16,002 bases of DNA from Candidatus Zixiibacteriota bacterium (GTDB lineage: Bacteria; SM23-81), in contig DAOVRJ010000022.1 in NCBI GenBank assembly GCA_030628225.1, positions 1-16,002 of the forward strand. The letters are read 5' to 3'. Below are positions 3-16,002 of the stretch, piece by piece (the first letter of the stretch is position 1; every line of letters starts with the position of its first letter). The notes under the pieces are model-generated. The model was not told the DNA's origin. It was given only the letters and a program-made list of their open reading frames with translations, and made no database searches. Made by a program: the position numbers and the translations under genes.

Positions 3-905
3 GGCTTTGGCCCGGTCACCTCGGATTCGCTTACCGGCGAGTACACCATCGATGCCTACGAGGGTGTTTACACCATGCGGGTGAGCAAGGACGGCTATGC
101 CACCGTGCTGCGGGACAGCGTACATGTCCTCGGCAGCATCGTGGAGGACTTTGAGCTGTCTCCTCTGGCTGTCTACCTGTACACCAAGGTGGACTCTCTG
201 CCTATCCCGGACTTTGATCCGGCGGGCATCATCAGCACGATCACCGTTCCCGATTCCTTCCAGGTGCAGGATCTTAACGTCTACGTGGACATCACCCACA
301 CGTACATCGAAGACCTTATCGTGAGCCTGACCAACCCCCAGGGCGACTGGATCTATCTGCACGAGCTCGGCGGGGGATCCAACCACGACATCAAGACCTG
401 GTACGACACCGAGACCGAGCCGGTGGGTGATCTGTCCGATCTGATGGGCAAGAGCTCCCAGGGAGATTGGATCTTGTGGGTGAGCGACAACGCAAGCTGG
501 GACACAGGCACCTTGAACCTGTGGAAGCTGCAGCTTTACGGGGGCGACGCCTCACCGCCGTCGGCCATCACGGATCTGCAGGCGACCCTCTCCGGGGACC
601 AGATAGCCCTCTGCTGGTCTGCGGCCACCGATGACGTGGGAGTGAGCCATTACGTGATCTATCGCAATGCCGATCCTGGTTTTCAGCCACAGGCCTCCGA
701 TTCCATTGGCTGGACCGGCGAAACCACATTTTTAGACCCGGATAGCCCTGTTAAAAACACCTTGGTCAACGGCTATTATGTGGTGAAGGCCGTAGATATC
801 TCCGGGAATAAATCCAGCAGCTCCAACAAGGTGGGTGAGTTCGACAAAGCCCTGGAGGACTGCAAGGGCAGGAAAAAGTTCAAGATGGATTTTGACAGGG
901 GTTGA
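3..905 (+). CDS. C-terminal part of a secreted P-domain/FN3 protein (5' partial)
   Basis: The reading frame is open to the left edge, so the ATG at 75 is internal and the true start lies outside the window; 300 residues are visible. The first ~50 residues look like the end of a carboxypeptidase-regulatory-like beta sandwich (TGEYTI, then GVYTMRVSKDGY). About residues 66-178 match a proprotein-convertase P-domain: DLIVSLTNPQGDW, an acidic middle, then QGDWILWVSDNASWDTGTL. About residues 183-277 form an FN3-like domain (HYVIYRN, YYVVKAVD) ending in VGEFDKAL, followed by a Lys/Arg-rich tail. P-domains commonly follow subtilisin-like or other secreted peptidase domains, so the missing N-terminus may be a protease; that is inference. 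The terminal FN3-GEFD module also occurs in the genes ending at 9921 and 13885. The next gene follows after 87 bases on the same strand. Confidence 0.85.
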   Translation, partial: GFGPVTSDSLTGEYTIDAYEGVYTMRVSKDGYATVLRDSVHVLGSIVEDFELSPLAVYLYTKVDSLPIPDFDPAGIISTITVPDSFQVQDLNVYVDITHTYIEDLIVSLTNPQGDWIYLHELGGGSNHDIKTWYDTETEPVGDLSDLMGKSSQGDWILWVSDNASWDTGTLNLWKLQLYGGDASPPSAITDLQATLSGDQIALCWSAATDDVGVSHYVIYRNADPGFQPQASDSIGWTGETTFLDPDSPVKNTLVNGYYVVKAVDISGNKSSSSNKVGEFDKALEDCKGRKKFKMDFDRG

Positions 906-992
906 GATCGGCGCGTCTCTATGAGCGAATTGGTGAGCCTAAGGGCGCTTTTTTGTCTGTCTCAATGGTGACAGAATATAAGGAGATGAGGC

Positions 993-3900
993 ATGGGTCG
1001 AAGGAAGATGCTCTTGTTGCGCCAGGACAAACGATTTTCGCCGTTGCTTCAGAGGGTAACGTTGGCCGCGTTGCTACCTCTGCTGATGGGAAGTGTGGTG
1101 GCAGCGGAGCACGTGTTTTCTCGCTTTGGCGATGATCCCCGGTCAACGGGGACGGTGGTGTCTCTGGTGGACTTTGATCCAGGGGGCGTTTCTCTGAAGA
1201 CCACCGTCAGCGGACTGCGCAGCGAGCGAATATCCATAGATGGAAGGGAGTTCGGAAATCTGCAGATCGCCGGGGAGGGGATCACCGCCCAGGTGGGCAA
1301 GCCCAGGCTGCCTGTGGTTCGGCGCCTGGTGGAGATTCCCTTCGGGGCAACAGTGTCCGTGGAGCTGGGCCCTGCTCACATTGAGGAGCTGAGCTTGCCG
1401 GATCTGTCCCTCGGCGAGCGGATTGCCCCCTTGCAGCCGCCGGTGCCCAAAATCCCCGGGGCTCAGGAGAGGATCCCCTTCGTTATCGACGAGGAGCACT
1501 ACAGAACAGACGCCTTCTGGCCGCCGGAGCTGGTGAGGGTCAGGGAGATCGGTGTGCTCCGCCAGACCCGTGTGGCCTTGGTGGAGATATTCCCGGTGCG
1601 CTACAATCCACGGAAAGGGCTGGTTAAACTTTGCTCTCAGGTCCAGTTTCAACTTTCTTTTCAGGGGGTCGATCTGGCCCGCACCAGGGCTCACAAAAAG
1701 CGGTATACCGACTCTTTCTCGGCCAGACCTAACTCCCGGCTGTTCATCGCCACCGACCCCCAGCCATCCCCATTGGATGGCTGGTCCACGCCCCGGGTGG
1801 GTTATCTTGTGGTGGTGGATGATGACCTGTACGAGGCGGTGCTCCCTCTGACCGATTGGAAACGCCAGCAGGGTTTTCAGGTGAGTCTGGTGAGAACCTC
1901 CCAGGCCGGTTACGACAAAGCTGAGATCAAGAGTTACATCAAGGACGCCTATGACACCTGGGATGTTCCGCCCACCTTTCTGCTTCTGGTGGGCGATGTG
2001 GGCCAAATCCCCACCTACTCCGTCGGCGGCATCACCACCGATCTGTATTACACCACCATGGACGAGGAGAATTACTTCCCGGATATCCAGGTAGGCCGAA
2101 TCTCGGCCACCGATTCTGTGCAACTGGCCATGATGGTGAAGAAGATCGTCGAGTATGAGAAGGGGCTCTGGGATGTGCCGGATGGGTGGACCCGAAAGGG
2201 CTATTTTATGGCCACGAATGATTCCTGGAATCACGGTCTGGCCGAGGGCACCCAGGAGTACTCGATGCATTTGGCCCGGGCCTACGGCATGATCTGCGAT
2301 TCCCTGTATGCTTACTATGGTACCGGAACACCCATTGCAGAGGCTCTTGATGATGGACGCTGCCTGGCGGTATATACCGGCCACGGTAGTTTTTATGGTT
2401 GGGCCGGTCCCAGTTTCACCAAGAGCGATGTCCAGGCTCTCCAGAACGGGCAGATGTATCCCCTTATATGCAGTCACGCCTGTAACACCGGCGGCTATCA
2501 TAAGGGGGAATGTTTTGGCGAAACCTGGCTGAGAGCCGAGGAAAAAGGTGCTGTGTCCTTCTGGGGTTCCACGGTTTCTTCATATTGGGATGAGGATGAT
2601 ATCCTGCAAAAGCGGATGTTCGATGCCCTTTTCGATAGCAGTCTCACCTGGCTTTCCGGGATGATGGACAAGGCTAAACTGGAGCTGTGGATCTTTTACG
2701 GTGGTGAGGGGCTGAGCGAGAGCTACTACAAGATGTACAATATCCTTGGTGACCCCTCCATGCACCTGTGGACTCGACCTCCCAAGTCCCTGGTGGCCAG
2801 CCACGCGGACCACTTGCGCCTGGGGATTTCCTCTTTTGTTATCGATGTCTGGCAGCCCCGAGCGCCGGGCCCCGGTTCCCAGGACGTCATTCAATCCACC
2901 ACCCTTGTTCCGGTGAACGACGCCCTGGCCTCCATCAGCATGAAGGGTGAGCTGTGCGGCACGGCCCTGACCACACCCGGTGGTAAGGTGTCCGTCAAGC
3001 TGGAGCCGCCTCCCCTGGCAGAGGACTCCCTGGAGATTGCGGTGAGCAAAACCGGGTATCGGCCGTATCTGGGGTTCGCCGAGATTCGTGCTTTTGGCCC
3101 GTACCTTCTGTATCAGGACCATGTTCTCGATGATTCAGCTGAAGGCAATGGCGATGGCCAGGCCAGCGCCGACGAGACTTTCCAGCTGGAGGTAATCATC
3201 GAGAACGTGGGCAGCGAGGTGGCCCGTCAGGTGACCGCCGTTTTGGCCGTCGATGATCCCTATGTCCAGATCAGTTGCTACTCGGCAAGCTTTGGGAACA
3301 TCCCGGCCAAAGATTCCTGCGCCAGCCTGATTCCCTACGAATGCCATATCCATGAGCTCTGTCCCAGCGGCCACCAGATTGATTTCACCTTGACGGCCAT
3401 GGACAGTCTGGGCGGTTGGTGGAACTCTGAGTTCCAGATTCAGGTGGTGGCCCCGGAGGTGCTCTGCTATGAATGCTGTATCCAGGATGATCCGCCGGGG
3501 GGCAATGGCAATGGTGTGGCCGAGAGCGGGGAAACTCTGGAGATCGTGGTGACCTTGCGTAACGAGGGGTTGGGTGGGGCCGCCGGCGTGACGGCCATGC
3601 TCACCTCCATTGATCCTCACATCCAGGTCCTGTCCGACAGCTCTTCCTTCGGCGATCTGACCCCTGGCTCCCAGGCCAGCGGTTCGCCTGCTTATCAGAT
3701 CACGGTCAGCGGAGCCGGAACGGATCTGCTGTTCTGTTCCCTGGTGCTGAACATCGCCGCTGTGAGCGGATATGCCAACTGCGATACCTTCGCCCTGATG
3801 GTGGGAGCCCCGGGGTTCAGCGACGACATGGAGGCGGGGGTGGGGAGCTGGACACACAGGGTCGTCAGCGCGAATTATATGGATCACTGGCACATCTCCG

Positions 3901-4685
3901 GGGAGAAAAGCCACGGTGGTGGCCACAGCTGGAAATGCGGAGACGATGGGGATGGCACCTATTCTCACTACGAGAATGGAGCCCTGGTGAGCCCGGCCAT
4001 TCTTCTGGCTTCCAGCTCCACGTTGACCTTCTGGCACTGGATGGAGGCGGAGATCTACGACGTCAGGAGGGCCTGGGATGGGGGGGTGGTGGAGATCAGC
4101 ACCGATGAAGGGGCGCACTGGAAGCAGATCGCCCCGGTGGATGGATATTCGCACACCATCTATGAGACGGCTCCCTCTGTGGGGAGCCCCTTTGAGGCTG
4201 GGATGCCCTGTTTTTCCGGATCTTGGGACTGGAAACAGGAGCAGTTTGACCTGTCCGCCTATTCCGGCCTGGTCCATATCCGTTTTCGGTTTGGAAGCGA
4301 TCAGTATACCGAGAAGGAGGGATGGTACATCGACGACCTGCAGGTGGCCGGCCCCGGGGCATCGTTCAGGTTCGTCTGGGATCTCCAGCTGCTCTGCTCC
4401 CATCAGCAGATCTTGTTGCTGTGGCCCTTTTCTGCCCGGAATGCGGGCCGCGTGCATTATGAGGTTTACCGGGCCCTGCAGCCGGCAGAGGTGATCAAAG
4501 CCGAGAATCTCGTGGCCGTGGTGTCGGAACCTCGATATGTGGACGATCTCAGGGGGTTGAGCAAATCCGGCGAGAGTTTATTCTACGCGGTGGTGGCCGT
4601 CGATGAGGCCGGACGGCGTTCGCCCTCTTCTCCAGTGGTTGGCCGGTGGGTGCACTCGTTGGAGTTGCCTTCCGGGAAAAGATGA
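993..4685 (+). CDS. Gingipain-like C25 cysteine peptidase with CARDB-like, immune-inhibitor-A-like and FN3-like domains (peptidase A)
   Basis: A predicted secreted cysteine endopeptidase of 1230 residues. The ATG is preceded by AAGGAG seven bases upstream. A basic start and hydrophobic stretch (about 21-38) with VVAA look like a Sec signal peptide. Residues ~55-255 resemble the C25 propeptide (VPKIPGA, PVRYNPRKG) and end in a basic cluster (TRAHKKR). Residues ~267-595 are the C25 catalytic domain: LLVGDVGQIPT, candidate His464 in YTGHGS, Cys497 in SHACNTGG, and closing ILGDPSMHL. Two CARDB-like repeats follow (~703-820 and ~821-940), each with a DD..GNG[DN]G motif. Residues ~941-1120 resemble the immune-inhibitor-A/MAM-like sandwich (APVDGY, GWYIDDL), also found in the next gene. 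The last ~105 residues are a diverged FN3-like domain whose end reads VVGRWV where neighbours have VGEFD. About ten cysteines lie between 655 and 930. Family assignment is firm; cleavage specificity is unknown. Confidence 0.93.
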   Translation: MGRRKMLLLRQDKRFSPLLQRVTLAALLPLLMGSVVAAEHVFSRFGDDPRSTGTVVSLVDFDPGGVSLKTTVSGLRSERISIDGREFGNLQIAGEGITAQVGKPRLPVVRRLVEIPFGATVSVELGPAHIEELSLPDLSLGERIAPLQPPVPKIPGAQERIPFVIDEEHYRTDAFWPPELVRVREIGVLRQTRVALVEIFPVRYNPRKGLVKLCSQVQFQLSFQGVDLARTRAHKKRYTDSFSARPNSRLFIATDPQPSPLDGWSTPRVGYLVVVDDDLYEAVLPLTDWKRQQGFQVSLVRTSQAGYDKAEIKSYIKDAYDTWDVPPTFLLLVGDVGQIPTYSVGGITTDLYYTTMDEENYFPDIQVGRISATDSVQLAMMVKKIVEYEKGLWDVPDGWTRKGYFMATNDSWNHGLAEGTQEYSMHLARAYGMICDSLYAYYGTGTPIAEALDDGRCLAVYTGHGSFYGWAGPSFTKSDVQALQNGQMYPLICSHACNTGGYHKGECFGETWLRAEEKGAVSFWGSTVSSYWDEDDILQKRMFDALFDSSLTWLSGMMDKAKLELWIFYGGEGLSESYYKMYNILGDPSMHLWTRPPKSLVASHADHLRLGISSFVIDVWQPRAPGPGSQDVIQSTTLVPVNDALASISMKGELCGTALTTPGGKVSVKLEPPPLAEDSLEIAVSKTGYRPYLGFAEIRAFGPYLLYQDHVLDDSAEGNGDGQASADETFQLEVIIENVGSEVARQVTAVLAVDDPYVQISCYSASFGNIPAKDSCASLIPYECHIHELCPSGHQIDFTLTAMDSLGGWWNSEFQIQVVAPEVLCYECCIQDDPPGGNGNGVAESGETLEIVVTLRNEGLGGAAGVTAMLTSIDPHIQVLSDSSSFGDLTPGSQASGSPAYQITVSGAGTDLLFCSLVLNIAAVSGYANCDTFALMVGAPGFSDDMEAGVGSWTHRVVSANYMDHWHISGEKSHGGGHSWKCGDDGDGTYSHYENGALVSPAILLASSSTLTFWHWMEAEIYDVRRAWDGGVVEISTDEGAHWKQIAPVDGYSHTIYETAPSVGSPFEAGMPCFSGSWDWKQEQFDLSAYSGLVHIRFRFGSDQYTEKEGWYIDDLQVAGPGASFRFVWDLQLLCSHQQILLLWPFSARNAGRVHYEVYRALQPAEVIKAENLVAVVSEPRYVDDLRGLSKSGESLFYAVVAVDEAGRRSPSSPVVGRWVHSLELPSGKR

Positions 4686-4798
4686 GCATAAATGGAAATT
4701 GTCTAAGCCGTTTACAAAAAACATATTCTACAAAGAGAGGTGATGATCAGGCGACATTTTTTAAAGTCACTCTGCCCTTTGTTCAACGCTTTTTTCCC

Positions 4799-4804
4799 AG
4801 GAGG
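4799..4804 (+). promoter_or_regulatory. Ribosome binding site that decides the start of the CWB2/C25-like gene
   Basis: AGGAGG ends eight bases before the ATG at 4813 but only five before an in-frame TTG at 4810. The spacing and the stronger codon favour ATG 4813. The two starts differ by one residue, so the signal peptide is unaffected. Confidence 0.7.
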
Positions 4805-4812
4805 TAGTATTG

Positions 4813-7800
4813 ATGAGCAAGAATCTGTTTGCTAAAATCGTCCCGGTCATGTGCCTGGCCCTGATTCTCGGCCTGACCTTTTCCAGCGTTCAGGCCAGCC
4901 GCGATCTGGACCCGACCGTTTTTCTGCCCCGGGTGAACATCGTTCATCTGGATCAGGGCACTGGCGATACCCAGTATTATTATCTGGCCGCGGTGCCCAT
5001 GACCATTTTCCACTATAACGATGACGTGTACACTGCCCTGTTGCTCTCCGACGACATCGCCGACCAGACCGTGGACTACATGTTGGATGACTGGCAGGCC
5101 TATCTGGATCAGCACCCCAGCCTGGACCGCCATTTGAACTTCATCGGCGGTGTCTCCACTTCCGTGCAGAACACAGTGGCTGCCCAGTTCGGCGTTACCG
5201 ACCCTGAGGACATCTCGGTCATAGAGGGAACCCCCATTCAGGTGGCCAACGAGATAGCCGAGCATGATTGGCGTACAGCCAGCTCTGTGGTCATCGCCCC
5301 CTATCTGACCACGCTCACCGATCATGACCGGGAGAGCATAGCCAACGCGGCGGTCATAGCCGCCCTGCATAATGTGCCTCTGCTTTTCGCTGAGCCCACG
5401 GCCCTCTCTTCCGAGACGATGGATCTCATCGGAGCTCTGGGCGCGGACCAGGCCGTCCTGGTGGAGATCGACGACATGCTCAGCTCCAACATCAACACCC
5501 AGCTATCCGGTGCCGGAGTGACCGTGACGGCCGACCTGACCTCAGAGAGCGATGTAGTGGCCCACGTGAAATCCCTGACCAACAAGGTGACTCTCTGCGG
5601 TCTGGTAGACTCGGGCGACTGGCAGCACCTGCCGGCGGCCTTCAGCGGCGCCCGTTACGGGGGATACGTGCTTTATCTGCCCCCTGGAATGAACAAGATG
5701 GCCAATGATCTGAGCGCCCGGATCAAGGAAGACCCCGAGCTGCAGGGCTATTACAAGCTCACCGAGCCCCTCACCGGCAAGGGCTGGATAAAAGATATGG
5801 AGAAGGGGATTGCCGATAACTTCTACGCCTGGCTCAACGGTCTGGGCGGGTCTGACCCCAGCGATCTGGAGACAGTGATCACCTTTGAGCCCCAGGGCAC
5901 TGGCGGGGGCGATCTGGAGACCACTTTCGAACGGTCAATCTCCGGCGATCCCTCCAATCTCACCCGTCCGGGAGCCATCAGCGGCCGCATGCCTCTGAGC
6001 TACCGGCGCAACATCGCCCTGGCCAACCGCACCGGCATGTACCGGGCGACCATCTTCGCCAACCCCCGTCCCCAGCACGTGACCCTGTCTATGAACGCCT
6101 ATGAGGTACAGTATTCCTCCGACTACGACGACAGTTGGGGAACCGGTCACAATGTCAATGAGGTTTTTGGCTGGCCGGCGGCAGGATGGACCGCCGGCAA
6201 CGGCTATTTCCCCTGGGATGATATCCATACCAATCCACCGGACCTATATCCCATCCTGCCTCCACCGGCCAACGGCAGTGCCGGTCACGACTGCGGCCAG
6301 TTCACCTCTTTCCTGAGTGGCGGCTATGAAACCCATTGGCACAGCGGTTCGGGGGCCGGAACCGGGTCCCACCCGGCCCAGCCGGATGTGACCAATATCG
6401 GCTTCGTCGCCGATATGAACGACGGCAGCACCTTTCTGTATTTCAGCTGCCATGGCGGCGGCACGGTCATCGCCGTGCGCAATACCGATAACGGCATCGC
6501 CCAGGATTCCGGAGCCCCGGCTTGGGGAGAACCCTACTGGCCCGACGACGACGAGCGAGTGTACGACGGGAGCGCCGGGGGCGATTACTATCAGTCCAAC
6601 CTGGACTCTGATCTGGAGAACGCCCGCGGCATGATGATCGCCTACAACGCCTGTGGCATGGCCGATGGATACATGAACGAGATCCTCCTGGAGCACGGCG
6701 GCACCGTCTCCATCGGCAGCTACAGCTCGGTCAGCTTCAACGGATCGGGATGGTGGTGGAACATATGGGTCCACATGGTGACCAACGAGGATTACACCGC
6801 CGGCGAGGCGGCCATGTACGCCACCGCCCGGGTTTCCGATCTGATGACGCCGGCTGGCAAGGGCCCGGACTACACTCTGCGCTATGTCGTCTACGGTGAT
6901 CCTAACTGCCCCTTCGCGCAGACGGACTGGACCTCGCCTGTGCCGAACCCCATCAACACCAATTACGGGGGACACAAGCCGGATAAACCGGAAAATGAAT
7001 TCGCCGGCAGCGTCGTTCCGGACACTATCCAGGTCAACGTGCCCACGGATGTCACCGTCACCCTGCAAGATACGGCTGGCGTCGGCGTTGATAGCGTCCT
7101 GGTGACCATCGAGGGTTGGGGAGTTTCCCTCTCCGGTCTGACCGACCCCTCCGGCCAGAAGATCTTCAACATCGATGCACCGTACGGTGAGGAGTTGACG
7201 GTGATTGGTGAAAAGGAAGCCTTTGACACCTTCACAGGTACCATTCACGTTATTGGGGCCTTGGATTTTGCCACCGCCGACATCTTCGTCGAGGTGGCCG
7301 CGGTTGGGCTGACCGACACCCTGACTCCGTACTACGAGGGCATCATGACCGGCGTCTCCGACCAGACGGGTTTTGAGCTCATCGCCCAGGGTTGCGGCGT
7401 GGACACCAGCACCACCGCGGTGGGCGACAGCGTGGACATGGGCGTGACGCCCACCTCCACCGGCGTGGTCAAGGGCGCCATCGCCAAATCAGGGTACAAC
7501 GTCTACGTGGAGAATATACCGTGCATCAGTGTCTATGGTACCCTTTCCGGGGCCGTGGTGAACGGCGATACCGGAGATTCCCTGTCATCAGTCAGGGTGA
7601 AAGGTTACATTCACGGGGCCGACACCAGCATGGCCAGTCCGGTTTTCAACGTGGTCAGCGAAGCCTCGGGCATCTACACCGTGCCCGGCCAGTTGGCTGT
7701 GGGCCTCTATGACGTGTACAGCAGGCAATTCGGCTATCTGGATTATAGCAACACCACCCAGGTGATGTACGGGGCCAATGTCCACGACGTGATCCTAACC

Positions 7801-9921
7801 CCGGCCCCCAGCGGCACCGTTTCGGGCATCTGCTATGAGACGGGAACAGGTACTCCCTTGAACGCCACTCTGAAGATATACCGCTCCGACGACATGAGCC
7901 TGTACATCACCACCTATTCCGACTCCTTGGCGGGCGGGGCCTATTCCGCGCTGCTTCCTTACTTCGACTATGTTTTTCGAGTAACCGCCTATCAGCACAA
8001 GCCCATCACCAGGGACGTGACTGTGGACGAGCCGACGGAAACAGAGAATTTCAAGATGGAGGTGACCAGCGGCAATATCCTGGTCATCAACGACGACGAT
8101 GGCTCCAAGGACATGCAGGTCAAGCGGGACAAGCAGGGCAGAGTTCTCAGCAGACCGACCGGTGCTCTGGAGGCAAAGGCCGGTGAGTCGGCAGCGGCCA
8201 TGATCAGCCTGTTAGAAGAGTTGGGTTATTATGTGGTCAGCGAGGAGGCGTCAGCCACCGACCCCGGGACCTGGCCCAGCTATGATTTCATCCTGTGGAG
8301 CGACGGAGACGATACCGATCCGGTTTCCACCGCATCCTACCGCACAAATTTGGAGAACTATGTCAGCACCGGCGGCAAGCTGCTCATCGAGGGCGGCGAG
8401 CTCGACTACGACGCTGCCAGCTACCCCGGGTATCCCAGCTTTGCCGCCAATGTTCTGCACGTTGTCGACTGGAACGGAGACAATTCCGGCAACCTGAATC
8501 GCGTATCTGGAATGGAGAGCCATCCCATCGCCAGCACACCCAACACATTGCCGGCCAGCATAAGCATCGCTTACTCGGGTTACGGTGATCAGGACGCCTC
8601 GACGCCCGCCTCCGACGCCTATGCGGTGTACGATTGTGCCTCGGATCCGGGGGACGCTGGCATTCTGGTCTATGACGACACGCCGTCTCCCGAGTCGGCC
8701 CAGATCGTCTTCTTCTCTTTCAACTGGCTGGCCCTCGCCGATTCCACCACAAGCGCCCAGCTGCTGGAGAACGCCGTTAACTACCTGCTAGCCCAGGAGG
8801 CTCTGCCGGAAGGCGGGATCAGCGGAACTGTGGACCTGAAGGGATCCAACGACGAAAGCGGCGTGGTGGTCACGGCCTCCAGCGGCGGCAAGTTCGCCAG
8901 ATCCGACACCACCGATACCGACGGCAGCTACGCCATCATGGATCTGTACAATGGTACGTACACAGTCACGGCTCATAAGCTGGGCTACGTAGACTCCACT
9001 GCAGGCGACGTGGTGGTGCAGAACGGGCAGATCACCGAGAACATCGACTTCAATCTCTATCCACAGCAGGTGATCTTCTATTTGGACTTCGAGGACGCCG
9101 GTCACATGGTGCCCGCCGGTTCCGACTGGGAGTGGGGCGTGCCCACCAGCGGACCCGGCAATGCCCATTCCGGGACCAAGGTCTGGGCCACCAAGCTGGC
9201 TGGGGAATATTCCAGCAGTTCCAACTCCACCCTGGATACATATAGCATAGATTTCCATGGTGTGACCCAGGCCACCCTCACCTTTTGGAGCTGGTACTCC
9301 TTCGAGGGGAGCAGCACCCATTACGACGGTGGCAATGTGAAGATCTCTCTGGAGGGAGGACCGTATAATCTGATCACCCCGGTGGATGGCTACGACGGTA
9401 TTATTTACAGCACCAACGCCGGTATTCCCAATGAGCAGGGTTTTGCCGGTCCCTCCACAGGCAACTTCTGGCACCAGGAGACCTTCGATCTGACCCCCTA
9501 CGTGGGTAATAAGGAGATTTTCCTGCGCTTCCATTTCGGCAGCGACGGATCCGTCACCTATCCGGGTTGGTACATCGACGACCTGATGATCACTGGTCCG
9601 GCGACGGTTCCCCTGCCGGTGGAGAATCTCCAGGCTCAGTTGATGGAGGAGGATATATATCTAATCTGGTCGCCTCCCGTCAAGGCCGGCGAGGTGGATC
9701 ACTATGTTATCTACCGAAATGAGAGCCATGATTTCATGCCTGGCCATACCGATTCCATCGGGGTCACCGAAGATACCACCTTCGTGGACACCGATCCCGG
9801 CGTGGGCTCTCCGTCGATCAACCACTACTATGTTGTGGAGGCGGTCAGCGGGGAAGGGTACCGGTCTGACAGATCGAGCACCGTGGGCGAATTCGATAAA
9901 TATCTGCAGGTAACACCCTAA
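4813..9921 (+). CDS. Giant secreted mosaic protein: CWB2-like region, divergent C25-like core, GATase-like, immune-inhibitor-A-like and FN3-GEFD domains
   Basis: 1702 residues, numbered from ATG 4813. Residues 1-28 are a Sec signal peptide ending in SSVQA. There is no C25-type propeptide. Residues ~105-255 resemble cell-wall-binding repeat 2 folds (NFIGGVSTSVQ, then NAAVIAALHNVPLLFAEP and an Asn-Thr-Gln-Leu helix). Residues ~400-705 look like a divergent C25/caspase-fold core: candidate His547 in FSCHGGG, Cys614 in YNACGMADG, and closing VYGDPNC. The His-Cys spacing is 67, against 33 in the neighbours, so activity is uncertain. Next come an Ig-like domain (~735-815), an unassigned beta region, two carboxypeptidase-regulatory-like domains (~906-1085), a class I glutamine-amidotransferase-like fold (~1086-1329, ILVINDDDG) with a basic insert, a third regulatory-like domain (~1334-1416), an immune-inhibitor-A-like sandwich (~1419-1596) and a terminal FN3-like domain ending VGEFDKYLQVTP. 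The role is probably surface proteolysis or binding. The domain list is firmer than the function. Confidence 0.88.
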   Translation: MSKNLFAKIVPVMCLALILGLTFSSVQASRDLDPTVFLPRVNIVHLDQGTGDTQYYYLAAVPMTIFHYNDDVYTALLLSDDIADQTVDYMLDDWQAYLDQHPSLDRHLNFIGGVSTSVQNTVAAQFGVTDPEDISVIEGTPIQVANEIAEHDWRTASSVVIAPYLTTLTDHDRESIANAAVIAALHNVPLLFAEPTALSSETMDLIGALGADQAVLVEIDDMLSSNINTQLSGAGVTVTADLTSESDVVAHVKSLTNKVTLCGLVDSGDWQHLPAAFSGARYGGYVLYLPPGMNKMANDLSARIKEDPELQGYYKLTEPLTGKGWIKDMEKGIADNFYAWLNGLGGSDPSDLETVITFEPQGTGGGDLETTFERSISGDPSNLTRPGAISGRMPLSYRRNIALANRTGMYRATIFANPRPQHVTLSMNAYEVQYSSDYDDSWGTGHNVNEVFGWPAAGWTAGNGYFPWDDIHTNPPDLYPILPPPANGSAGHDCGQFTSFLSGGYETHWHSGSGAGTGSHPAQPDVTNIGFVADMNDGSTFLYFSCHGGGTVIAVRNTDNGIAQDSGAPAWGEPYWPDDDERVYDGSAGGDYYQSNLDSDLENARGMMIAYNACGMADGYMNEILLEHGGTVSIGSYSSVSFNGSGWWWNIWVHMVTNEDYTAGEAAMYATARVSDLMTPAGKGPDYTLRYVVYGDPNCPFAQTDWTSPVPNPINTNYGGHKPDKPENEFAGSVVPDTIQVNVPTDVTVTLQDTAGVGVDSVLVTIEGWGVSLSGLTDPSGQKIFNIDAPYGEELTVIGEKEAFDTFTGTIHVIGALDFATADIFVEVAAVGLTDTLTPYYEGIMTGVSDQTGFELIAQGCGVDTSTTAVGDSVDMGVTPTSTGVVKGAIAKSGYNVYVENIPCISVYGTLSGAVVNGDTGDSLSSVRVKGYIHGADTSMASPVFNVVSEASGIYTVPGQLAVGLYDVYSRQFGYLDYSNTTQVMYGANVHDVILTPAPSGTVSGICYETGTGTPLNATLKIYRSDDMSLYITTYSDSLAGGAYSALLPYFDYVFRVTAYQHKPITRDVTVDEPTETENFKMEVTSGNILVINDDDGSKDMQVKRDKQGRVLSRPTGALEAKAGESAAAMISLLEELGYYVVSEEASATDPGTWPSYDFILWSDGDDTDPVSTASYRTNLENYVSTGGKLLIEGGELDYDAASYPGYPSFAANVLHVVDWNGDNSGNLNRVSGMESHPIASTPNTLPASISIAYSGYGDQDASTPASDAYAVYDCASDPGDAGILVYDDTPSPESAQIVFFSFNWLALADSTTSAQLLENAVNYLLAQEALPEGGISGTVDLKGSNDESGVVVTASSGGKFARSDTTDTDGSYAIMDLYNGTYTVTAHKLGYVDSTAGDVVVQNGQITENIDFNLYPQQVIFYLDFEDAGHMVPAGSDWEWGVPTSGPGNAHSGTKVWATKLAGEYSSSSNSTLDTYSIDFHGVTQATLTFWSWYSFEGSSTHYDGGNVKISLEGGPYNLITPVDGYDGIIYSTNAGIPNEQGFAGPSTGNFWHQETFDLTPYVGNKEIFLRFHFGSDGSVTYPGWYIDDLMITGPATVPLPVENLQAQLMEEDIYLIWSPPVKAGEVDHYVIYRNESHDFMPGHTDSIGVTEDTTFVDTDPGVGSPSINHYYVVEAVSGEGYRSDRSSTVGEFDKYLQVTP

Positions 9922-9956
9922 GATTCAATACTGGCCTGAAAATTGCAGTGATAATG

Positions 9957-9991
9957 TCGTCTGGGCTGTCGTGCCTGGACAGCCCAGACGA
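9957..9991 (+). terminator. Perfect 14-bp intergenic hairpin without a T tract
   Basis: The arms TCGTCTGGGCTGTC (9957-9970) and GACAGCCCAGACGA (9978-9991) are exact reverse complements around a seven-base loop, GTGCCTG. Two G-T wobbles could extend the base. It starts 36 bases after the stop of the upstream gene. No run of T follows, so a standard intrinsic terminator is not shown. A factor-dependent or U-less terminator, a 3'-end stabiliser or a processing site all fit. Confidence 0.45.
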
Positions 9992-10086
9992 TGGAGCTAA
10001 TCCCATTAGAAGCACGGAATTATCAAAACGGGAGATAATCGTAAGGATGTGAATAAGTGGAGGAACCTAAAACTGGACGAGTAGAG

Positions 10087-10093
10087 AGGAGGT
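10087..10093 (+). promoter_or_regulatory. Ribosome binding site supporting a TTG start codon
   Basis: AGGAGGT lies nine bases before TTG at 10103. No ATG or GTG in this frame lies nearby upstream, and translation from the TTG immediately gives a textbook signal peptide (MQRKTIFAF and a hydrophobic core ending AHA). The TTG is therefore taken as the true start. Confidence 0.75.
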
Positions 10094-10102
10094 CGACTTA
10101 TC

Positions 10103-13100
10103 TTGCAGAGGAAAACTATTTTTGCGTTCACTCTGATTCTGGTCTTGAGTCTGGCCACATTTTCCTGGGCCCATGCTGCTGGTCAGTGGGTGTCCCTGGA
10201 TGTCGGCTCTGAGGATGGGGTGCAGATCTCCATTTTGGAATCTGGTCCGGTGCGCACCGTGGTGGAGTTACGCCTGGATGGATACTGGCAGGACCAGGTG
10301 GAGATCGAAGGGGTGACCCACGGGATCATCGGCTTGCCGGGGAGGACAACCCTGATGGAGAAGGGGCTTCCGGATCTGCCCAAGGTGCGGGAGCGGTTGA
10401 TCGTGCCCGACGATGCTTACATGGTCGTCAGGGTATTGGAGGTCGATGAGCTGGAGATGGAGACATTGCCCATCGCGCCATCGAAGGGCCATCTGCCCCG
10501 AAGCATCGATCCGGCGACGGTGCCCTATGAGTTCGATGATTTTTACCAAAGCGACACCTGGTATCCAGCGAGCAATGTGGAGTTGAGCGATCCATTTATT
10601 GTCCGGGATTTTCGCGGTATCTCTTTGCAGGTGAACCCCATTCAGTACAATCCGGCCCTGGGCCGGCTGCGCATATACCGGCGGTTAGTGGTGGAGGTGT
10701 TTTCCGCTGGGCCGGGTCGAAGTAATGTGAAGCGCCGGACCAAGGGTTTTGATCGGATGGATGCGGATTTTGAGTCGCTTTACCGGCGTCTGTTTCTCAA
10801 CTATTCCGCGGCCAAGTATGCTCCCGTGCTGGAGCAAGGCCGGATGCTCATCATCTGTGACAACGGCTTTTACAACGACACCTTGTCTCTCTATCACTGG
10901 AAACTGCAGAAGGGCGTACCAACCAAGCTGGCCCTGTATCCCGATAGCACGGGCAGCGGCTCTGGCGCATTGCAGTCCTACATTCAAAATGAGTATGATT
11001 CTGCCGATGGGCTGACATACGTCCTGTTGGTGGGGGATGTTGGTCAGATTCCCACTCTCTATGGCACAGCAGAGGGGGCTCCCTCCGATCCATGCTATGT
11101 GAAGCTGGAGGGCAGTGATCACTATCCCGATGCCTTCATCTCCCGGCTTTCGGCCACCAGCGCCGCGCAGGTAGAAAATCAGGTGGAGAAGTTCGTCAAT
11201 TACGAGGCCAGCCCGGACACAGGTGCGGCAGCGGCCTGGTATCACAAAGGTACCGGGATTGGCAGCGACGACAGTGGCGGGACCGGCCTGATGGATTGGG
11301 AGCGTTGTGATCTGCTGCGGGACGATCTTTTGGCTTACACATATACCCATGTGGATCAGATATACGACCCCGGGGCCACGGCCGCCCTGGTTACCACGGC
11401 CGTCAATGACGGACGTAGTATCATCAATTACATCGGCCACGGTGGCGTGACCTCCTGGAGCACCACCGGTTTCTCGAATTCCAATGTGAACGCCCTGAGC
11501 AATGGTCACATGTTGCCCTATATCTGTGATGTGGCCTGTGATAACGGGAAGTTCACATATGGGAGCGGCGATTGTTTCGCCGAGGCCTGGCTCAAGGCTG
11601 GCTCCGCCGGCAGCCCCAAAGGAGCCATTGGGATCTACGCCTCATCCACCCTGGCCGACTGGATGCCCCCCTGCGTGATGCAGACGGAAGTGGTGGATCT
11701 GCTTGTTGCAGAGGAGAAAAATACCTTCGGCGGCCTGAGCTTCAACGGTGTGATGAAGGCCATGGATGAATACCCGGGGACGGTTGGCACTAAGCTGATG
11801 GAGCAGTACAACCTGTTCGGGGACTGCTCGCTTGTGATGCGCACCGACGTGCCCACTACCATGACTGTGAATCATGACCCGATCATCTTAGTGGACGCCA
11901 CCAGCTACGACGTGCAGGTGCCGGGGGTGGAGGGTGCCCTGACCTCGCTGTACCACGATGGTGTCTTCTATGGATCTGCCTATACCAATGCCGCTGGCTA
12001 TGCGACCATCACTCTAGTGCAGTCCTTTCCCGGGCCCGGCCAGGTGACCCTGACGGTCACCGCCTACAACCGGGTTCCTTACGTCACCACATTAGATGTG
12101 GTCACCCCCTCCGGCCCGTACATGGTCTATGAGTCTCATGTCATCGACGATGTGGCCGGCGGCAATGGAGACGGCATGGTCAACCCCGGCGAGAATATCG
12201 GAATGCCGGTAAGCTTGAGAAACGCGGGCTCCGACCCGGCCACCGCCGTCACGGCTCTGCTGACCATCGACGATCCCTACGTGCAGATCGCCGACAGCCT
12301 GGAGAATTACGGTGACGTACCGGCGGGATCCACGGCTACCTGCGTCGATGACTACGACTTCCAGGTCCTCAGCGGGTGCCCGAATGGCCATGTGCTGGAT
12401 TTCACCCTGGAGATCAGCTCCGCGGAGACGACCTGGGTGGAGCACGGTTTGAACATCACCGTCGCCGCCCCGGACCTAGCCTATGAGGATCATGTTATCG
12501 ATGACAGCGGGGGAAATGGCAACGGCCAGGCGGATCCCGACGAGACCTTCGACATAACCATCTCCCTGAAGAACTGGGGTTCCGGAACGGCCATGGGGGT
12601 CTCGGCTCTGCTGAGCTCCGACGACGGCTACTTGGATGTGCAAGTGAACACTGCCAGCTACGGGGATATTCTCCCCGAGCAGGTGGCGTCATCTTTGACG
12701 GCTTACACCGTGAGCGTGGATGCCGGCTGTCCGCCGGGCCACGTGGCCGACCTTATCCTGGACATGACCGCCGGTGGATCGTACGCGGCGGCAGACACCT
12801 TTCAGATCAGCATCGGCCAAAGACCCATCTTGCTGGTGGATGACGATGATGGTAAAAGTTACCAGAGCTACTGGCTCGATGCCCTGGACGCCAACGGATA
12901 TTCTTATGAAGTCTGGGAGCTTTCCAGCAAGGGTTCGCCCCCGCCGGACAGCCTGAAGCAATATCGCGTCGTCCTGTGGACCACGGCCGACGATTATGGG
13001 TCTACCGGCTCTCCGACGACCCTGACGGCAACAGATCAGGCTAATTTGCAGGCCTATCTGGATGCCGGAGGGAACCTGTTCCTTTCCAGCCAGGACGTGC

Positions 13101-13885
13101 TTTACGACAACGAACCGGTCACCTCCTTCATCACCGATTACCTGCATGTGGCCGATCATGAAGATGACACACACCCCACGCAGGTGAGCGGTTTTAACGG
13201 GGACCCCATCAGCGACAGGATGATCCTGCCGCTGAGCTTTCCCTTCAGCAACTGGGGCGACGATATCGTTGTCGGGGCCGGAGCCACCTGTATTTTCGAA
13301 AATAACGATTACAGCACTGCGGAGTTCATCAGAGAAGGACCGCCCGCCGAGGAAGATCTTGCCAAGGGTGGAGAGAAACGGGGTGCCGGCGGGGCCCTCC
13401 GCTATCCCGATGATGGTTCCTCCACCTACAAAGTGGTGTTCTCCGTCTTCGCCTTCGAGGCTATCAGCACATCGGCCCCTGATCCGAACAACCAGAAGAC
13501 GGTTTTGGCCAATATCGTCGACTGGTTCTTAGGCGATTGTATTCCGCCATCGCCGGTAACTAATTTAGTGGCTATCCTCGGGGAAAATCAGCTGGTCCTG
13601 GAGTGGTCTCCGGCCATAGACAGCAAGGGTGTAGATCACTATGTGATTTACCGCAATACACAGCCTGATTTTCTGCCCTCAGCCACAGATTCCATGGGAT
13701 CGGCCGCGGACACCTTCTTCGTCGACACCAGTAGCGCCATCGGAGACACCCTGACCAACCACTATTACTCTGTGAAGGCCGTGGATGGAGCCGGCAACAA
13801 ATCGTTTGCTTGCGGAAACATCGGTGAATTCGATAGCCATCTCACCAACATCCACCCTGATAGCCTTAGGACCCTTCAACCGTAG
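10103..13885 (+). CDS. Gingipain-like C25 cysteine peptidase with CARDB-like, GATase-like and FN3-GEFD domains (peptidase B)
   Basis: A 1260-residue predicted secreted cysteine endopeptidase starting at TTG. The signal peptide is residues 1-25 (AHA cleavage site). Residues ~30-205 are a C25-type propeptide (GLPDLPKVRERLIVP, NPIQYNP), ending in a basic cluster (VKRRTK). Residues ~245-580 are the catalytic domain: LLVGDVGQIPT, His446 in YIGHGG, Cys479 in DVACDNGKF, and LFGDCSLVM. The VACxNGxF motif is the closest here to classical gingipains. An Ig-like segment (~585-668) precedes two CARDB-like repeats (~671-790 and ~791-906), each with GGNG[DN]G and a CPxGH turn. Residues ~907-1144 form a glutamine-amidotransferase-like fold (PILLVDDDDG) with a charged insert near 1080-1097. 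Residues ~1147-1240 are the FN3-like terminal module (DHYVIYRN, HYYSVKAVD), then IGEFDSHL and a 13-residue tail. It shares the last two domains with the gene upstream. Specificity is unknown. Confidence 0.93.
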   Translation: MQRKTIFAFTLILVLSLATFSWAHAAGQWVSLDVGSEDGVQISILESGPVRTVVELRLDGYWQDQVEIEGVTHGIIGLPGRTTLMEKGLPDLPKVRERLIVPDDAYMVVRVLEVDELEMETLPIAPSKGHLPRSIDPATVPYEFDDFYQSDTWYPASNVELSDPFIVRDFRGISLQVNPIQYNPALGRLRIYRRLVVEVFSAGPGRSNVKRRTKGFDRMDADFESLYRRLFLNYSAAKYAPVLEQGRMLIICDNGFYNDTLSLYHWKLQKGVPTKLALYPDSTGSGSGALQSYIQNEYDSADGLTYVLLVGDVGQIPTLYGTAEGAPSDPCYVKLEGSDHYPDAFISRLSATSAAQVENQVEKFVNYEASPDTGAAAAWYHKGTGIGSDDSGGTGLMDWERCDLLRDDLLAYTYTHVDQIYDPGATAALVTTAVNDGRSIINYIGHGGVTSWSTTGFSNSNVNALSNGHMLPYICDVACDNGKFTYGSGDCFAEAWLKAGSAGSPKGAIGIYASSTLADWMPPCVMQTEVVDLLVAEEKNTFGGLSFNGVMKAMDEYPGTVGTKLMEQYNLFGDCSLVMRTDVPTTMTVNHDPIILVDATSYDVQVPGVEGALTSLYHDGVFYGSAYTNAAGYATITLVQSFPGPGQVTLTVTAYNRVPYVTTLDVVTPSGPYMVYESHVIDDVAGGNGDGMVNPGENIGMPVSLRNAGSDPATAVTALLTIDDPYVQIADSLENYGDVPAGSTATCVDDYDFQVLSGCPNGHVLDFTLEISSAETTWVEHGLNITVAAPDLAYEDHVIDDSGGNGNGQADPDETFDITISLKNWGSGTAMGVSALLSSDDGYLDVQVNTASYGDILPEQVASSLTAYTVSVDAGCPPGHVADLILDMTAGGSYAAADTFQISIGQRPILLVDDDDGKSYQSYWLDALDANGYSYEVWELSSKGSPPPDSLKQYRVVLWTTADDYGSTGSPTTLTATDQANLQAYLDAGGNLFLSSQDVLYDNEPVTSFITDYLHVADHEDDTHPTQVSGFNGDPISDRMILPLSFPFSNWGDDIVVGAGATCIFENNDYSTAEFIREGPPAEEDLAKGGEKRGAGGALRYPDDGSSTYKVVFSVFAFEAISTSAPDPNNQKTVLANIVDWFLGDCIPPSPVTNLVAILGENQLVLEWSPAIDSKGVDHYVIYRNTQPDFLPSATDSMGSAADTFFVDTSSAIGDTLTNHYYSVKAVDGAGNKSFACGNIGEFDSHLTNIHPDSLRTLQP

Positions 13886-13924
13886 TTGCCAAGAGCTTCT
13901 GGGCGAGAGGTTTTGGTTTTTTCC

Positions 13925-13961
13925 CATGACAGGTGGCCGTATAGAGCGGTCGCCTGTCATG
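13925..13961 (+). terminator. 16-bp intergenic hairpin downstream of peptidase B
   Basis: The outer arms CATGACAGG (13925-13933) and CCTGTCATG (13953-13961) are perfectly complementary. The inner arms TGGCCGT and GCGGTCG continue the stem with three G-T wobbles around the loop ATAGA. It begins 40 bases after the stop codon. A T-rich stretch precedes rather than follows it, so intrinsic termination on the plus strand is not clear. It could be a factor-dependent terminator or an mRNA 3'-end structure. Confidence 0.4.
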
Positions 13962-13977
13962 TCATTATCCACGATGG

Positions 13978-14116
13978 GGTTTTTGTTTCTGTCGAAATGT
14001 CGTTCTAGTTCCTGAGGCGTCAGATGGGTATCAGCCCGGTAATGTATGATGGCTGGGAATCGGTGGTCTCCGTTCGGTCCGGGGAGTTCGACCATTACTT
14101 GCAATATTGGAAATAG
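13978..14116 (+). pseudogene. Decayed remnant of the FN3-GEFD C-terminal module
   Basis: Between peptidases B and C one frame (14009-14116) reads DGWESVVSVRSGEFDHYLQYWK and stops. GEFDHYLQ matches the GEFDKYLQ that ends the protein finishing at 9921 in seven of eight positions, again right at a C-terminus. In another frame just upstream (13978-14046) GFCFCRN...PEASD resembles the YVIYRN...PQASD strand-turn of intact modules, with about two residues missing between RN and P. Roughly 75 bases expected between the two parts are absent. The pieces are thus out of frame and shortened, as in a dead gene end. The GEFD tail is the strong part and the upstream match is moderate. No ribosome site precedes the only ATG (14042), so a functional small protein is unlikely. 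Confidence 0.45.
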
Positions 14117-14148
14117 AGACAGTTTGCAACCAGTGGAGGTAGGTGCAT

Positions 14149-16002
14149 ATGAACAGATCGTTGGAGAAATTGTGGCTGACGGGCGCTTTTTTGCTGGCCC
14201 TGAACATGGGAATGGCCGGTTATGCCTGGGCCCAGAGCTCCCCGGAGTGGATCGCCATGGGAGGTCCCCAGGCGGGACGGGAACCGGTCATCTCCGTCCT
14301 TGCCTCAGATGATAAGATCATCGAGATCCAGATGAGCACCCCCGGCCTGTTTCGGGAACTGGTACCCACCCCCGGAGGGGAATTTCCCCGGCTGTCCATG
14401 CCGCCGGAGGGTTTTACCACGGAGATAGGCTGGCCGCAGTTGCCGGTTATTTGCCGGTGGGTGGAAATACCCGCCGGGGCCCGGGTGGAGCTGGAGGTGG
14501 TGGAGGAGGTGACCAGCGTTTTGTCCCTGGATGAGCTGGAAATTCATCGCCCCATCGCCCCGGTGCAGCGGCCCGTGCCCAAGATCCCCGGAGCCCGGCA
14601 GGCTATGAATTTCGAAAGGGACGAGGGCTTCTATGCTCAAGACCAGTGGTATCCTGGGGATCTAGCCCGGTTGGGGGAGATCGATGAGACGCGCGGGCAT
14701 CGTCTTGTGCTTCTGAAAGTCTATCCCGTCCGATACAATCCCCGGAAAGGAACGGTATCCGTCTGTTCCCGGCTGCGCTTGAAACTCCACCTGCGCGGCT
14801 CGGATCTGGAGGAAACCAGTAGAAAGATCAAGCGGTGGCACAGCCACGACATGGAGAAAGCCCTGAGGCGAAAGGCGCTTAATTACGACCGCTATGCTGA
14901 CAAGGATGTGCCCGCTCTGCCCATCGGATATCTGATCATCACGCACGACAACTTCTACAGCCAGGTGCAGCCCCTGGCTCAGTGGAAGGAGCAGAAGGGG
15001 TTTGTGGTGACGGTGACCAGGTTTTCGGAGATCTCGCCGCAGACCAGCACCGGCATCAAGACCTATATCCAGGATGCCTATGATAACTGGCCGGTGCCGC
15101 CCACCTATGTTCTGTTGGTGGGAGATGTTGGCTATATCCCCACCTTTTACGGTTCCTCCAGCTCCACGGAGACGGACCTGCCCTATTCGGACATGGAGGG
15201 CAGCTATTTTCCCGAGCTGGAACTGGGCCGTTTTTCGGTGAGCAGCACCACAGAGGTGACGGCCATCGTGGATAAGGTGCTGGACTATGAACGGACGCAT
15301 CTGGCTACTCTGAATTGGTTTACAGAGGCCGTTTTCATGGCCTCTTATGACAACTGGCGGGTCAGCGAGGGAACCCACAACTACGTCATCAGCACCTACT
15401 TAGAGCCCAACCGCTACACCTGCCACAAGATTTACGCCCGCCTGGGAGGAGGAACGTCCGATATTACCTCCAACATCAATGCCGGCCGGGCCATCGCCAA
15501 TTACTCGGGACACGGAAACCGGACCTCTTGGTCCAATCCTGGCTTCAGCAAGAGCAACATCGATAACCTGAGCAACGCCGACAAATATCCCTTTGTTATC
15601 AGCAACGCCTGTCTGACCAGCGATCTGGGTTACAGCGAGTGTTTCGGCGAGCACTGGGTGAATGTGGCCAACAAAGGGGGAATTGCCCACTGGGGGTCCT
15701 CCAATTACACCTATTGGGATGAGGATGACATCTTAGAGAAGAGAATGTACAGGGCCATCTTCGAGGATGAGCTATTTACCTTTGCGGGATTCACCAACCA
15801 GGCCAAGTGGTATCATTACCAATATTGGGATGGTGCGGGACTGAGCAGATATTACTACGAGTGCTACATTCTGCTGGGCGATCCCTCGCTGATGCTGCCC
15901 ACAGCCATACCCGCCGCCCTGACCGTGGATCATCCGGCCACGGTGCTCCTGGGGCCCAGCGATGTGACGGTCACGGTCACCCATGAAGGTTCTCCTGTGG
16001 AA
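14149..16002 (+). CDS. Gingipain-like C25 cysteine peptidase, 3' partial (peptidase C)
   Basis: The frame is open for 618 codons to the right edge. The ATG follows GGAGGT with eight bases between. Residues 1-28 are a Sec signal peptide ending AWA. Residues ~30-220 match the C25 propeptide and resemble that of peptidase A most closely (VPKIPGAR, YPVRYNPRKG). A basic stretch (RKIKRW, then LRRK) marks the propeptide/catalytic junction. Residues ~257-585 are the catalytic domain: GYLIITHDNFY, LLVGDVGYIPTFYG, candidate His455 in YSGHGN, Cys488 in SNACLTSD (33 apart), YWDEDDILEKRM (nearly identical to peptidase A) and LLGDPSLML. The start of an Ig-like domain follows (TVDHPATVLLGPSDVTVTV) and is cut by the edge. 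Whether it carries the FN3-GEFD tail cannot be seen. Probable role: secreted or surface protein degradation. Confidence 0.92.
   Translation, partial: MNRSLEKLWLTGAFLLALNMGMAGYAWAQSSPEWIAMGGPQAGREPVISVLASDDKIIEIQMSTPGLFRELVPTPGGEFPRLSMPPEGFTTEIGWPQLPVICRWVEIPAGARVELEVVEEVTSVLSLDELEIHRPIAPVQRPVPKIPGARQAMNFERDEGFYAQDQWYPGDLARLGEIDETRGHRLVLLKVYPVRYNPRKGTVSVCSRLRLKLHLRGSDLEETSRKIKRWHSHDMEKALRRKALNYDRYADKDVPALPIGYLIITHDNFYSQVQPLAQWKEQKGFVVTVTRFSEISPQTSTGIKTYIQDAYDNWPVPPTYVLLVGDVGYIPTFYGSSSSTETDLPYSDMEGSYFPELELGRFSVSSTTEVTAIVDKVLDYERTHLATLNWFTEAVFMASYDNWRVSEGTHNYVISTYLEPNRYTCHKIYARLGGGTSDITSNINAGRAIANYSGHGNRTSWSNPGFSKSNIDNLSNADKYPFVISNACLTSDLGYSECFGEHWVNVANKGGIAHWGSSNYTYWDEDDILEKRMYRAIFEDELFTFAGFTNQAKWYHYQYWDGAGLSRYYYECYILLGDPSLMLPTAIPAALTVDHPATVLLGPSDVTVTVTHEGSPVE

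Follow-up and report, generated by a model that had tools for sequence, protein, structure and literature searches.

A subfamily of FN3 domains that almost always forms the extreme C-terminus of exported proteins is common to several phyla; it is not homologous to the C-terminal domains (CTDs) of type IX secretion, and its occurrence is not tied to the presence of that system. From its position and its carriers we infer a role in attachment or routing, and our preferred but tentative explanation, whose chances we put a little short of even, is that exported proteins use the module as a dedicated domain for attachment or sorting, independently of type IX.

The window, by which we mean the whole stretch of 16,002 bases analysed, is one complete contig of a Candidatus Zixiibacteriota assembly (2.34 Mb, 306 contigs, 92% complete). 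Its plus strand, on which the genes and modules described here lie, carries five consecutive large exported-protein genes: one encoding a P-domain protein, three with Peptidase_C25 and one with CarboxypepD_reg and InhA-like MAM domains. The contig edges cut the N-terminus of the first protein, a proprotein-convertase P-domain protein (ORF 3-905), and the C-terminus of the fifth (14143-16002). Between them lie a C25 peptidase with a propeptide and a MAM-like domain (993-4685; PF01364, 1e-66), the large exported protein with CarboxypepD_reg and InhA-like MAM domains (4810-9921; domain scan and signal-peptide heuristic) and a C25 peptidase with a propeptide and a C25_C Ig domain (10103-13885; PF01364, 1.4e-49; PF08126, 7.8e-25), all three of them passengers of the module. 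The region 993-16002, with its three C25 (gingipain/PorU-family) genes and the MAM-domain protein on one strand, represents a local expansion of C25 paralogues.

Four of the window proteins close with one FN3-fold module of about 105 aligned residues, and both the HMM and the alignment place the copies where the sequence-only reading had put them. In the P-domain protein, the module and its 20-residue tail span 549-902 (HMM 552-875; E 1.7e-52, this sequence being part of the model) and end GEFDKALEDCKGRKKFKMDFDRG-stop. The copy of the MAM-domain protein lies at 9604-9918 (HMM 9604-9921) and ends GEFDKYLQVTP-stop, and that of the second complete C25 peptidase at 13535-13882 (HMM 13541-13861). 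Common to these three are the motifs HYVIYRN, DS(I/M)G, YYxVxAV and (V/I)GEFD. The fourth copy, at the end of the C25 peptidase encoded at 993-4685, is a divergent one found by HMM at 4353-4682, with VGRWV for VGEFD. Against a four-module HMM the window modules score E 1e-45 to 1e-52, the same four sequences having built the model, and in all four the GEFD position lies 7-20 residues from the end of the ORF. The worn copy at 4353-4682 had been described in the sequence-only reading and is genuine, because a model built without that copy and without the tail columns still finds it (39.7 bits, E 8.9e-10). The sharing is far beyond chance, and about 30 places in the genome carry the module.

A fifth tail had also been reported in the gap before ORF 14143. 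The peptide SGEFDHYLQYWK-stop is indeed present there in translation (about 14081-14116), but it stands alone with no module body upstream, and its HMM score of 6.3 bits was reached by one of 2000 shuffled gaps. Since it is isolated, weak in score and chosen after the fact, it is only suggestive of a remnant of a lost module tail. The same gap (13886-14142) holds a terminator-like inverted repeat, TGACAGGTGGCC...GGTCGCCTGTCA.

Across this genome, the four-module model matched 33 places, about 25 of which are protein ends, nearly all of them with (V/A)GEFD followed by 0-20 residues; the other places include three internal copies and one cut by a contig end, the weakest being generic FN3. Forty-two proteins end in the module in a same-family relative, which is very probably one and the same assembly as the genome reached via Zixibacteria bacterium SM23_81 loci (same module count, same best-match coordinates). 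The Pfam fn3 model matches 11 places of the present genome, only one of which overlaps the module. With the full model, 132 of 139 copies in the eight genomes sampled were terminal. This bias is not an artefact of modelling the tail, because a tail-free model lacking the GEFD columns gave the same result: at 40 bits or more, four whole genomes contained 100 terminal copies, seven internal ones and one cut by a contig end. The module is thus nearly always C-terminal (100/107), as had been supposed, while tail-free matches of 20-40 bits in this genome are partly internal. The seven internal copies keep a GEFD-like motif in part (EYD, EFD, KLD). In two Zixibacteria-type genomes, internal copies are followed by about 190 residues containing two repeats of the 'GYTMISLSL...WYG...G.PYY' type; this stretch had no Pfam match in the three carriers of this genome and is possibly another C-terminal module.

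The tail is well conserved, with G in 87, E in 79, F in 74, D in 75 and L in 68 of 89 diverse copies. AlphaFold2 modelled the window module at 13535-13882 as an FN3 sandwich (pLDDT 91) whose final strand, at V-G, has only two residues and whose tail beyond it is modelled with lower confidence. In a Chloroflexota module (pLDDT 92.7), the last strand is V-G-E and FDFALVPG is confidently placed (about 92 over the stretch). Foldseek matched FN3 domains at probability 1.00; the nearest solved structure was the FN3 domain of chitinase A1 (1k85, TM 0.84 normalised to the target), the FN3 domains of Pel3/PelI were among the neighbours, and no type IX CTD was among the first 50 matches listed. A GEFD-like motif that survives in part in internal copies and comes out ordered in the models may be structural, closing the fold, rather than a signal, and these two features count against reading it as a short linear signal.

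The carriers are signal-peptide proteins, in line with the sequence-only reading: by a simple home-made heuristic, 103 of 115 carriers in eight genomes begin with a signal-peptide-like sequence, compared with 118 of 412 other long ORFs (Fisher p 3e-33), a contrast that is indicative only because the background set includes spurious ORFs. No C-terminal transmembrane stretch, scored as a hydrophobic 18-mer in the last 60 residues, occurred in any of the 132 terminal copies, which rules out a sortase tail of the transmembrane type. The passengers are diverse, with C25, S8, beta-helix, GHL10, PQQ, FG-GAP, CBM and P-domain families as well as glycosidases and propellers. Lipoboxes were found in three Chloroflexota carriers, which would already be anchored by them. 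Eisenbacteria and Fermentibacteria encode many small (about 190-230 aa) exported proteins made of a short domain and the module, several of which start QYVVxPSVxAGGG after the signal peptide.

Outside the phylum, GEFD-ending modules occur in 78 places of Eisenbacteria Prado127 and 66 of Fermentibacteria Zod_Metabat.355 (E 1e-6), where the motif is looser (VGEHDY, VGEMDY), and at 11-29 copies per genome in Anaerolineae/Caldilineales (Chloroflexota). A survey of 298 genomes sampled from the Anaerolineae, in which at most 16 candidates per genome were scored, found the module in 30, of which about half had at least eight copies and most of the others one to three. A viral scan returned only two generic FN3 proteins. 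The ends of the tails differ by lineage: PG falls within the last six residues, forming an LxPG end, in 34 of 38 Chloroflexota copies versus 1 of 87 elsewhere, and the last residue is K or R in 30 of 47 copies from two Zixibacteria-type genomes. A module tree, although of low resolution, also clusters by lineage (seven changes versus a shuffled mean of 59). This clustering, together with the differing passengers, agrees with a history in which each lineage duplicated the module onto the ends of unrelated genes; duplication alone would also give the lineage clustering of the tails. Relatives in Thermoplasmata and WOR-3/Stahlbacteria have a mostly internal FN3 body in which the E and D of the motif are lost and which is followed by a 'GWNLVSxPL' or 'NWVSLPW' domain.

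The sequence-only reading had likened the module to the sorting domains of type IX secretion, while judging it unlike the CTD families. That judgement is sustained. The module resembles type A CTDs (Por_Secre_tail PF18962/FlgD_ig PF13860, both in this genome) in being a short C-terminal Ig-like module on dozens of exported proteins per genome, but it folds as FN3, lacks the CTD motifs B, D and E and shows no profile similarity: 89 modules compared with eight of the genome's own CTDs gave an hhalign probability of 1.2%, and Pfam and NCBIfam scans of the same 89 detected no CTD family. Nor does any carrier in this genome also have a type IX CTD, as none of about 68 CTD-like places lay in the same frame as any of about 29 modules within one ORF length.

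This genome encodes SprA (632 bits, with its neighbours), as do its relatives and the Eisenbacteria and Fermentibacteria, but no match was found in the four Anaerolineae carriers tested, each with 11-29 copies of the module. Likewise FlgD_ig, which tracks CTDs, is abundant in those SprA-positive genomes and scored zero in eight Chloroflexota carriers. Two SprA-positive, CTD-rich genomes of another family of the same phylum in turn lack the GEFD form; where examined, their related FN3 without GEFD usually lies some 100 residues short of the end and is followed by a classic CTD (one case was Pfam-confirmed). With the module found without type IX in Chloroflexota, and type IX without the GEFD module in these relatives, neither needs the other. 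Profile comparison and the carriers without SprA or CTD led us to reject type IX membership, and the type IX part of the earlier reading lacks support as a general account; the broader notion of a sorting or anchoring tag retains its basis in terminal position, export signals and the lack of CTD overlap.

We also considered C25 peptidases as the dedicated processing enzyme. C25 occurs in 186 of 298 Anaerolineae, at up to six per genome, and in 26 of 30 module carriers versus 160 of 268 other genomes (p 0.005). The association is not specific, because C25 proteins are themselves cargo. The family is common in Anaerolineae although the four tested genomes of the class had no SprA match.

A variant of the type IX idea is that PorV/SprA read the module like a CTD in diderm carriers. 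SprA was found in all diderm carriers tested, the module and a CTD never share an ORF in this genome, the C-terminal sandwich is Ig-like, and the K/R ends recall the basic residue of CTD motif E (PMC11969387). Already weakened by the abundance of the module in Anaerolineae without SprA match or CTD, this explanation is quite improbable given also the hhalign and structural comparisons, the absence of the GEFD form from SprA-positive relatives and the lack of the glycine-tyrosine motifs B and D of CTDs. Still more improbable, to the point of being barely credible, is the idea that the FN3 domain is a secretion determinant read by some other outer-membrane route, for instance type II secretion (T2SS). 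Its attraction is that the structural neighbours include the FN3 domains of Pel3/PelI, exported enzymes whose FN3 loops act as T2SS signals (PMC7949064). In Pel3/PelI, however, the determinants reside in loops of both the FN3 and the catalytic domain, whereas conservation in the module falls on core residues and the terminal tail; moreover, Chloroflexi genomes are reported to lack bamA and LPS genes, consistent with a single membrane, and to be monoderm (PMC5826079).

A close rival to a sorting or attachment tag is a structural or adhesive end-cap, possible though on the doubtful side, in which the FN3 domain stabilizes large extracellular enzymes or sticks them to polymers and no sorting machinery is involved. 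GEFD would then be a closing strand and latch, and the terminal position would result from duplication onto gene ends. The FN3 fold with its nearest structure in chitinase A1, the lineage-wise expansion and the many polymer-active enzymes among the passengers all agree with such a cap, and it stays close behind because internal copies preserve part of the motif and it looks ordered, as the tail does in the Chloroflexota model. Other FN3 domains of the genome, however, show nothing like the terminal bias of 100 to 7; the all-or-many distribution is not what a cap would suggest, and P-domain, beta-propeller and phosphoesterase passengers have no obvious need for polymer binding.

Terminal position, export signals, diverse passengers and all-or-many copy number instead favour a dedicated attachment or sorting tag. 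On this explanation, an FN3-fold beta-sandwich closed by [VL]-G-E-F-D-x-x-L, at most about 20 residues from the C-terminus, would follow its carrier through Sec export; the folded domain and its lineage-specific end, mostly K/R in Zixibacteria-type genomes and LxPG in Chloroflexota, would then be bound by a cell-surface or matrix partner, and this binding would retain or route the carrier protein. The outer-membrane route of diderm carriers could still be type IX or some other system, while Chloroflexota carriers would have no outer membrane to cross. Counting against this explanation, no partner, receptor or processing enzyme for the module was found, and the three lipobox carriers would be anchored without it. 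We regard as rather unlikely the stronger proposal of one undescribed sorting or attachment system spanning diderm Zixibacteria-type bacteria, Eisenbacteria and Fermentibacteria as well as the monoderm Chloroflexota. Under that proposal the folded FN3 domain, with V-G-E-F-D-x-x-L at its end, would stand in for type IX CTDs and transmembrane sortase tails alike, and a lineage-adapted partner would read it.

Scans of the 89 copies found no Pfam or NCBIfam model of this subfamily beyond generic FN3. The fold is that of Pfam fn3 (PF00041), which 6 of the 89 match at E 0.001, but the module adds the V-G-E-F-D-x-x-L end and is almost exclusively C-terminal; the window copies fall below the Pfam gathering cut-off for FN3, and most copies are beyond Pfam's reach. 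Like LPXTG, PEP-CTERM, rhombosortase and myxosortase tails, it is a C-terminal element on unrelated exported proteins with an all-or-many distribution; unlike them, it is a folded domain of about 105 residues free of a transmembrane stretch. A literature search recovered the motif only in an unrelated SPARC paper, and no work that associates Zixibacteria with type IX secretion or gives an FN3 tail a part in sorting.

A whole secretome can be recognised by its C-terminal tag. As this case warns, finding a C-terminal Ig-like domain in a genome that has type IX secretion is not enough to call it a type IX signal. If the tag explanation is true, a type-IX-independent tag on dozens of proteases, glycosidases and surface proteins would allow the surface proteomes of abundant uncultured phyla to be listed, and would also give a way to look for the missing receptor.
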